This document shows, piece by piece, positions 21,240-22,867 of a stretch of 63,620 bases of DNA. The notes under the pieces were generated by a model. The model was not told the DNA's origin. It worked only from the letters and a program-made list of their open reading frames with translations, and did not search any database. The stretch is from Pelagibacterales bacterium SAG-MED30 (GTDB lineage: Bacteria; Pseudomonadota; Alphaproteobacteria; Pelagibacterales; Pelagibacteraceae). Made by a program: the position numbers and the translations under genes. Location of the stretch: contig JACWEA010000004.1 of NCBI GenBank assembly GCA_014653775.1, positions 1 through 63,620 on the forward strand, given 5' to 3'. Positions within the stretch are counted from its first letter, which is position 1. Every line of letters begins with the position of its first letter.

Positions 21240-21938
21240 ATGAGAACAAAAATTTTTTGTGATATTGCTGATTTAAATTTAATCAGAAAGTTTAATAAAA
21301 AAAAAATTGTGAGAGGTTTCACAACAAATCCATCATTAATGAGAAAGGCTGGAGCAAAAGATTATAAGGCATATTCTATAAAAATTCTTAAAATTTGTAA
21401 AAATAAACCAATTTCTTTTGAGGTATTTGCTGATGAACATATAGCGATGATTGCTCAAGGTTTAAAAATAAGTAATTGGGGTAAAAATGTATATGTTAAG
21501 GTACCAATAGTTAATTCAAAAAATAAATTTACCGGTAGAGTAATAAAAGAATTAAATAATAGGAATATTAAATTAAATGTTACAGCGGTATATACTGCCA
21601 AACAAACAAAAAAGATTTTGAAAGTTATCAATAAAAAAACTAAAGTTATCATCTCGATTTTTGCTGGTAGAGCTGCGGATACGGGTAAAAATCCTATTCC
21701 AGAGTTTGTAAAAAGTATTCAATTAGCAAAAAAATATAAAAATGTAGAAATTTTATGGGCAAGTGTGAGAGAGCCTTATAATTATTTGCAGGCAAAATTG
21801 TTAGGTTGTCAAATTATAACAGTCCCACCTTCAATAATAGAGAAAATTGAAAAATTTGGAAAATCGTATGAGAACCTTACAAAAGAGACTGTTAAAGCTT
21901 TTTTATCAGATAGTAAAAAATCTAAATTTAAAATCTAA
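21240..21938 (+). CDS. Transaldolase / fructose-6-phosphate aldolase family protein
   Basis: The 232-residue protein is a single TIM barrel. KIFCDIADLNLIRKF at the start and GFTTNPSLMRKAGAKDY near residue 26 are family hallmarks, and NVYVKVPIVN places the Schiff-base lysine at Lys87. SIFAGRAADTGKNP near residue 139 and ILWASVREPYN follow. The length matches the short FSA/TalC group rather than classical transaldolase (about 320). It could move three-carbon units in the non-oxidative pentose phosphate pathway together with transketolase (28243-30186), or act as an aldolase; sequence alone does not decide. It ends seven bases before the convergent tRNA. Confidence 0.8.
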   Translation: MRTKIFCDIADLNLIRKFNKKKIVRGFTTNPSLMRKAGAKDYKAYSIKILKICKNKPISFEVFADEHIAMIAQGLKISNWGKNVYVKVPIVNSKNKFTGRVIKELNNRNIKLNVTAVYTAKQTKKILKVINKKTKVIISIFAGRAADTGKNPIPEFVKSIQLAKKYKNVEILWASVREPYNYLQAKLLGCQIITVPPSIIEKIEKFGKSYENLTKETVKAFLSDSKKSKFKI

Positions 21939-21944
21939 TTTAAT

Positions 21945-22021
<77 letters not shown>

Positions 22022-22027
22022 GTATAT

Positions 22028-22222
22028 TTAAATTCTGTTTTTAATTTTATTTAATTTTTTTACTCTTTTAATATTTTCTTGAAGAATTCTTTTTTTTTTT
22101 TCTGAAGGTTTTTCATAAGTATTTTTTAATTTTATTATCTTAAAAAAACCATCTCTTTGAAGTTTCCTTTTCAAAACTCTTAGAGCTTGCTCTACATTAT
22201 TGTCTTTAACTTCTATTTTAAT
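22028..22222 (-). CDS. rpsU: Ribosomal protein bS21
   Basis: The protein matches bS21: KIEVKDNNVEQALRVLKRKL followed by QRDGFF and a lysine-rich tail. It is about 64 residues and binds near the 3' end of 16S rRNA, where it helps mRNA binding. The start is not obvious. The only conventional candidate is TTG at 22232-22234, but its G is the first base of a perfect GGAGG (22228-22232), and no ribosome-binding site precedes it. Five bases after GGAGG lies an in-frame ATT (22220-22222) that gives the usual family N-terminus (M)KIEVKDNN. I chose ATT; the TTG reading adds four residues. Confidence 0.9.
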   Translation of the reverse strand: MKIEVKDNNVEQALRVLKRKLQRDGFFKIIKLKNTYEKPSEKKKRILQENIKRVKKLNKIKNRI

Positions 22223-22226
22223 ATCT

Positions 22227-22232
22227 ACCTCC
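22227..22232 (-). promoter_or_regulatory. Strong Shine-Dalgarno of rpsU that decides an ATT start
   Basis: GGAGGT on the minus strand is fully complementary to the anti-SD CCUCC and lies five bases from the in-frame ATT at 22222-22220. Most genes in this window have weak or no recognisable site, so this match stands out. If the upstream TTG were used, the site would fall inside the coding region. Confidence 0.6.
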
Positions 22233-22285
22233 AAAAAAGAGTTTAAGTAGCACTTTTATTTTTTTATGTCTATTTATTTTATTCA

Positions 22286-22867
22286 TTAATTACTTACTTG
22301 TTGAGATAGTTTCTCTCTTTCTTTTTGTTTTTTCTCTCTTTTTATTCTTCTTTCAGCTTTTTCTATTGCTTCAATTAAATCTTTTTGAGTAAACAAGTTT
22401 AGAGCTACAGGGTCTTTAGGGCTTAAATTATTGTAATTCCAATAACTCTTATTTCTAATTGAAGTCACAGAATTTTTTGTAATACCTACTAATTTTGCAA
22501 TTTGGGAATCTTTAAGAATATTGTGTTGTTTTAATAGCCATAAAGCAGAGTCAGGTTTGTCTTGTCTTTTAGATAATGGAATATATTTTTTTATTTTTTT
22601 TTCAGTATTTGAAATTTCTATATCAGTACCTTTAATTTTTAATGGCCTAGTATTATCTTTAGATGATAATTCAATTTCCTCTCTTGTTAATTGTCCAGAT
22701 ATAATAGGGTTATAAGCTTTAATTCCTTTAGCAACCTCTCCATCAGCAATACCTTGAATTTCTAATTCGTGTAATTTACAAAAATCAGCAATTTGTTTAA
22801 AAGTAAGGGTAGTATTTTCTACAAGCCAAACGGCTGTTGCCATTGGCATTAAAGGGGCATCTGACAT
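22286..22867 (-). CDS. trcR: Cell cycle transcriptional regulator TrcR (DUF1013)
   Basis: The 193-residue protein is a strong match to the alphaproteobacterial DUF1013 family: PLMPMATAVWLVENTTLTF at the start, then IADFCKLHELEIQGIADGEV and GIKAYNPIISGQLTREEI. Residues 110-150 (LLKQHNILKDSQIAKLVGI then TKNSVTSIRNKSYWN) form a helix-turn-helix. The Caulobacter member binds RNA polymerase and DNA at cell-cycle promoters. The tail (residues 160-193) is a charged helix. It starts one base from the rpmE stop, inside the long carbon/translation unit, so it is probably expressed with growth genes. No binding site was recognised. Confidence 0.85.
   Translation of the reverse strand: MSDAPLMPMATAVWLVENTTLTFKQIADFCKLHELEIQGIADGEVAKGIKAYNPIISGQLTREEIELSSKDNTRPLKIKGTDIEISNTEKKIKKYIPLSKRQDKPDSALWLLKQHNILKDSQIAKLVGITKNSVTSIRNKSYWNYNNLSPKDPVALNLFTQKDLIEAIEKAERRIKREKKQKEREKLSQQVSN

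Follow-up and report, generated by a model that had tools for sequence, protein, structure and literature searches.

In Pelagibacterales bacterium SAG-MED30 (class Alphaproteobacteria), translation of rpsU, which encodes ribosomal protein bS21, almost certainly initiates at the near-cognate codon AUU, as judged from the conservation of the start region, and we estimate at about 70% the probability that this start serves as a throttle matching bS21 output to need. The likely effect is a brake on bS21 itself: from the arrangement of the locus, the cell seems to keep bS21 production low on purpose and to couple it to how the translation-start machinery stands. To our knowledge, very few near-cognate starts have been proven in bacteria. 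AUU starts are already known and extremely rare; their use, or that of AUA, at rpsU appears to be new within the open-access literature, where we found no report of either.

The window, i.e., the whole stretch of 63,620 nucleotides that was analysed (contig JACWEA010000004.1), carries rpsU on its minus strand (Table 1). The product read from the ATT matches PF01165 with 57 bits (cut-off 27) and the NCBIfam model TIGR00030 (S21p) with 53.5 bits (cut-off 28.95). Since its residue 2 falls on profile position 2, the ATT corresponds to the first residue of the bS21 family, in agreement with the initial annotation, which had placed GGAGG five bases from an ATT that gives the family N-terminus. Its further claim that a TTG overlapping the GGAGG is the only standard in-frame start also stood: between the upstream in-frame stop and the ATT, the window holds no other ATG, GTG or TTG. 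Upstream lie two promoter-like elements, T[AG]GACA and TGnTAnnn[AT], separated by exactly 17 nt. This pair is found in 44 of the 49 loci of the window's genus and is not fitted by the other five (L044, L124, L127, L129, L130); from it, leaders of 12 to 16 nt, mostly 15, are predicted within the genus. A structured rpsU leader was considered and rejected, as the predicted length of about 15 nt is too short to accommodate one, and an Rfam search of positions 21900-22400 gave nothing above threshold except the tRNA. Three of the genus loci (L044, L124, L127) read GGAGGATGTTATT, with an out-of-frame ATG directly after the Shine-Dalgarno (SD) sequence that would open a four-codon frame overlapping the AUU start.

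Table 1. Features of the rpsU locus in the window
Feature	Position	Strand	Remarks
-35-like element TAGACA	22267..22272	-	consensus T[AG]GACA, 44/49 loci of the genus
Extended -10-like element TGCTACTTA	22244..22252	-	predicted from consensus position; RNA start about 15 nt ahead of ATT
Shine-Dalgarno GGAGG	22228..22232	-	T-run upstream; followed by spacer TAGAT
Spacer TAGAT	22227-22223	-	five bases, SD to ATT
ATT start codon of rpsU	22220..22222	-	followed by AAA ATA GAA GTT
rpsU, ribosomal protein bS21, 64 aa	22028..22222	-	stop 22030-22028; PF01165 and TIGR00030
TTG, sole in-frame standard start, judged unused	22232..22234	-	overlaps SD
Initiator tRNA-fMet gene	21945..22021	-	6 nt past rpsU stop; ARAGORN tRNA-Met CAT, Rfam tRNA

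Within the window, the motif GGAGG-N4-9-ATT is not enriched (7 observed vs. 8.8 expected), so the case for an ATT start rests on conservation. The alignment of SAR11 start regions bore out the ATT behind GGAGG that had been proposed from the window. Among 92 rpsU loci of the window's family (Pelagibacteraceae), comprising 70 plus 20 more picked blind to the start and two (L242, L244) chosen for their ATG, codon 1 is ATT in 84, ATC in one, ATG in seven and ATA in none; without L242 and L244, the 90 remaining loci hold ATT 84, ATC 1 and ATG 5. In the same 92 loci, codon 3 serves as an ordinary codon for Ile and reads ATA in 81, ATC in six, ATT in four and GTA in one. An ordinary Ile codon at position 1 should resemble this profile and does not. 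In the other family of the order, hereafter the sister family, all 19 loci share the layout GGAGG-N8-ATA-GTN-GAA-GTA, with ATA (18) or ATC (1) as codon 1. The third base is all that distinguishes the SAR11 rpsU start codons AUU, AUC and AUA (collectively AUH) from AUG. On a wider scale, bS21 matches were obtained in 118 of 147 genomes of the window's family and in 180 of 197 of the order, and exact-pattern counts over 397 genomes of the family gave ATH-AAR-... in 319, for which the individual codon 1 is known only among the matches listed, and ATG-AAR-... in seven. Of the 149 order genomes with a completeness of 90% or more and contamination not above 5%, nine, G012 and G032 among them, had no bS21 match, through either gene loss or an assembly gap. 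Possible extra bS21 copies are a divergent second S21 gene in a partly contaminated genome (L071, G010:C47), which was excluded from the counts, and a complete genome's second match to the ATH pattern (G005:C1:547826).

Two other starts within the window can be weighed against these alignments. Translation from the TTG (22234-22232), which would add an N-terminal Met-Glu-Val-Asp extension, has in its favour that this is the only standard start in frame and that TTG occupies the same place in 41 of the 85 AUH loci of the family, the latter because the SD follows a T-run. We regard it as highly improbable, however, as the codon overlaps the SD, no standard start follows the upstream in-frame stop in 40 of the 85 AUH loci (and in 16 of the 19 loci of the sister family), in several genera of the window's family a stop codon (TAG or TAA) separates GGAGG from ATT, and ATG, where it occurs, replaces the ATT and not the TTG. 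Another near-cognate start such as the ATA at codon 3 (22216-22214), which is in frame and likewise of the AUH type, is scarcely credible: it lies 11 bases from the SD, it is GTA in one locus, ATG stands at codon 1 in seven genomes, and the family N-terminus fits codon 1. Initiation at the AUU of codon 1, in turn, gives rpsU the marks of a near-cognate-start gene of the infC/sigR kind: it has no usable standard start, and the near-cognate codon that falls on the first residue of the family is conserved.

GGAGG precedes 83 of the 85 AUH loci of the window's family, at a spacing of 4 to 9 that equals 5 in 60 of these 83, vs. none of the seven ATG loci, and it precedes all 19 loci of the sister family at a spacing of 8; rpsU thereby has the strong SD at proper spacing looked for in near-cognate-start genes. 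For the window's rpsU leader, the predicted pairing energy is -12.2 kcal/mol, which is surpassed by only one of the 62 other window ORFs of at least 100 aa, even when the best start within the first quarter of each is chosen, and GGAGG stands before candidate starts in only two of the 62. Judged within the window, the rpsU SD is outstanding where SDs are rare, as for autoregulated bS21 in Bacteroidota. Across the family, predicted pairing ranges from -14.6 to -7.3 kcal/mol for AUH loci and from -3.2 to 0.0 kcal/mol for ATG loci; the AUH mean is -11.5 kcal/mol, and the Bacteroidota criterion of below -13 comes from a different method. The 16S rRNA tail reads GGATTACCTCCTTTC in four complete genomes of the window's family whose match reached the 3' end and GGATCACCTCCTTTC in three sister-family genomes; both keep CCTCC, so the CCUCC anti-SD is intact. 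The two families differ within this tail, with GGATTACC in the window's family (L251-L254) vs. GGATCACC in the sister family (L248-L250), and leaders of rpsU that carry GGAGGTA would form a pair at the altered base.

The initial annotation had named a clear ATG elsewhere in homologues as evidence against the AUU start. ATG was indeed found, but in all seven ATG genes it stands at exactly the position of codon 1, behind an A/T-rich leader from which GGAGG has been lost, and such homologues support the AUU start rather than refute it. A tree of the upstream gene and rpsU took in 49 of 55 loci, the other six lacking the upstream gene. Two changes are required on it to explain the ATG state, but a single change suffices in 28% of the bootstrap trees, and the joint switch of start codon and SD may have been a single event. 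Either way, one or two lineages lost both the AUU and the SD, so the device is dispensable.

Weak rpsU starts, as far as they can be called from the genomes compared, recur across the Alphaproteobacteria. Sampling one genome per family of the class gave 109 rpsU loci outside the order, namely 104 of the 105 matching genomes (G302 was left out) plus five second copies. A mechanical rule, which looks for a standard codon at a distance of 4 to 8 ahead of the DNN motif, called GTG in 48, ATG in 24, TTG in 16 and no start in 21. Hand-checking of four rows with a chance standard codon (L284 stays GTG, L305 and L312 become ATG, L296 becomes ATC) changed this to GTG 46, ATG 26, TTG 15, AUH 18 and CTG 4, i.e., a non-AUG start in 83 of 109 loci. 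In the 21 loci that the mechanical rule left without a standard start, codon -7 is ATA (7), ATC (7), CTG (4), ATT (2) or ACG (1, in L265, which has ATT at -8). All but one of these 21 loci thus have AUH or CTG at codon -7 (21 of 22 after the hand check), vs. 0 to 4 of 21 at neighbouring codons, and in class loci with ATH-GTH the second codon remains a possible start. Compensation by SD energy was not seen across the class, where predicted pairing before the hand check was no stronger at near-cognate than at standard starts (p = 0.90); GGAGG or AGGAG was commoner at the near-cognate ones (15/21 vs. 33/88, p = 0.007, likewise before the hand check). As a control from the same sample, uS15 begins with ATG in all 28 parsed loci (best 30 of 108 matching genomes, two unparsed). 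Outside the class, the 24 best-scoring rpsU loci, read by eye, start with ATG (23) or TTG (1), one row listing a chance GTG first. The pattern ATH-GTN occurs in at least 116 stretches of named genomes, with 80 loci listed. Twenty-four of these have GTG as second codon (16 from Bartonella) and were taken as ordinary GTG starts and not counted; the other 56 listed loci divide equally into ATA (28) and ATC (28), with an SD-like motif in 41 and no standard start after the stop in 21.

Directly downstream of rpsU, on the same strand, lies a tRNA gene that we take to be of the initiator type, as it has C at position 1 against A at position 72 and is close to the textbook bacterial initiator. An initiator tRNA starts on the same strand within 150 nt downstream of rpsU in 69 of the 90 family loci having at least 120 nt of downstream sequence, at 230 to 243 nt in ten, and is absent within 400 nt in 11. 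In the window's genus the gap is 2 to 8 nt, with L051 as the one locus without the tRNA. With so few bases between the two genes a separate promoter is unlikely, so rpsU and tRNA-fMet would share a transcript. The initiator tRNA is single-copy in 11 complete genomes and adjoins rpsU in ten of them; G026 has a second, weak match (71%) that is probably another tRNA. No initiator tRNA adjoins rpsU in the 19 sister-family loci, nor was one found within 500 nt in 50 class loci, the sequences of the other 59 being too short. AUH also occurs where rpsU lacks the tRNA neighbour, namely in the sister family and in the genera g5 and g7. We therefore rejected the idea that AUU is in general a by-product of tRNA linkage, and the link does not in general explain the weak start. 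Conversely, the ATG lineages retain the neighbour, so AUU is not needed for the linkage. Three G-C pairs in the anticodon stem mark initiator tRNAs. In the window and its relatives the stem pair 29-41 (own numbering) is A-U and not G-C, and this weakened pair might matter for near-cognate starts.

In the mechanism that we propose, pairing of GGAGG with CCUCC would place the 30S subunit five bases upstream of the AUU on the very short predicted leader, and fMet-tRNA would read AUU with a third-position mismatch, so that bS21 should still begin with Met. Because IF3 discriminates against AUU, rpsU translation should be low, SD-dependent and IF3-sensitive, and it should also respond to the initiator tRNA and to the state of the 30S platform. 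If, as seems to be the case, a short transcript carries both rpsU and the cell's only initiator tRNA, its transcription is presumably high and rpsU translation would have to be held down. Dosage would be the most economical reason for this, as an abundant tRNA transcript must not flood the cell with bS21. Weak starts in relatives without the tRNA neighbour imply that a more general reason for low bS21 exists, perhaps, by analogy with Flavobacterium, feedback on the platform at which bS21 and the anti-SD come together. The ATG lineages may reach weakness in another way, through loss of the SD, which is more in keeping with a low output being conserved than with an IF3 loop being obligatory.

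A start of this kind has precedents in genes of other functions. As described in one source (PMC5472188), infC starts with AUU under autoregulation by IF3 in Escherichia coli and with ATC in Streptomyces, and for both infC and Streptomyces sigR it is established that fMet-tRNA reads near-cognate starts and that IF3 destabilises such complexes. Like infC, SAR11 rpsU is a translation gene with a near-cognate start that is expected to be IF3-sensitive; unlike infC, it encodes bS21 and not IF3. Experimental proof exists for sigR, whose GTC start is repressed by IF3 (PMC5472188). SigR resembles rpsU in its near-cognate start behind a strong conserved ribosome-binding site, which sets dosage against a co-transcribed partner, and in codon swaps within a class (GTC/GTT in sigR, AUU/AUC/AUA in SAR11 rpsU); it encodes a sigma factor with a proven start, whereas SAR11 rpsU encodes a ribosomal protein and is known from sequence.

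Feedback on rpsU that depends on IF3 or bS21 is plausible. True feedback, in which 30S subunits without bS21 (with the anti-SD exposed or differently placed) or without IF3 would prefer the AUU site of rpsU and bS21 or IF3 would control its own supply, on the model of Flavobacterium rpsU or E. coli infC, is speculative, and we entertain it only tentatively. Pointing towards it are the conserved near-cognate start, the weak rpsU starts throughout the class, and an outstanding SD in an SD-poor window, as in Bacteroidota. In Flavobacterium johnsoniae, according to PMC9976891, autoregulation of bS21 is proven and a strong rpsU SD is part of the mechanism. SAR11 rpsU shares with it an SD of exceptional strength against a background of few SDs. 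The F. johnsoniae system, however, depends on bS21, bS18 and bS6 occluding the anti-SD (PMC9976891), whereas our evidence for SAR11 is genomic; the near-cognate start is a SAR11 feature, and the accessible portion of the same source mentions none for F. johnsoniae. Against feedback also stand the lineages with ATG and no SD, and the start of infC. The latter is GTG, right after a stop, in four loci of the window's genus (L076, L080, L088, L101); these loci show no AUU-type infC, which an infC-type IF3 loop would involve. The classical loop is thus missing there, and IF3 is not AUU-controlled. No infC was found in the incomplete genome of the window. Within the family the infC start varies (GTG directly after the stop in g1, ATG in g7 and g9), and candidate ATT starts behind AGGAG or AGAGG-like sequence were noted in g12 (L085, L089, L093) and g5 (L078, L081, L086).

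At the other extreme, the AUU might be only a compensated or drifting start, its weakness offset by the SD, that plays no part in setting the bS21 level. A survey of start/SD compensation (PMC5622118) describes such compensation as general for GUG and UUG, and the pairing of a weak start with a strong SD and of AUG with a weak SD is also what SAR11 rpsU displays; that an ATG form without SD exists fits a passive start as well. We nevertheless consider this unlikely. Compensation elsewhere mainly concerns GUG and UUG, whereas the SAR11 AUU/AUA is held over an order (PMC5622118 for the former), and, in that survey over 36 genome groups, switches to AUU amount to one in 61,358 ancestral AUG starts and one in 5,080 GUG starts. 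Furthermore, AUH persists although ATG, one mutation away, is found in just seven of 397 genomes, and the same pattern occurs in other families of the class. A throttle on bS21 remains our preferred reading. A bolder extension of it, which we find rather doubtful, is that weak and near-cognate starts would let alphaproteobacterial bS21 synthesis report the stringency of 30S initiation, with IF3, the initiator tRNA and bS21 occupancy of the anti-SD platform as inputs, and that SAR11 would close the circuit by transcribing its sole initiator tRNA together with rpsU.

For SAR11, the finding means that a whole order of bacteria abundant in the ocean has kept a near-cognate start at a ribosomal-protein gene. 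AUU, AUC and AUA replace one another there, and AUG is confined to a few genomes. Gene finders that allow just ATG, GTG and TTG would misplace the start of SAR11 rpsU. The natural set of SD and start-codon swaps makes the control of bS21 dosage directly testable. Phage and viral bS21 genes (L192-L240) have a standard start available in all 41 of the 49 loci that were listed (37 ATG, 3 TTG, 1 GTG), and these phage copies would escape control through a near-cognate start.
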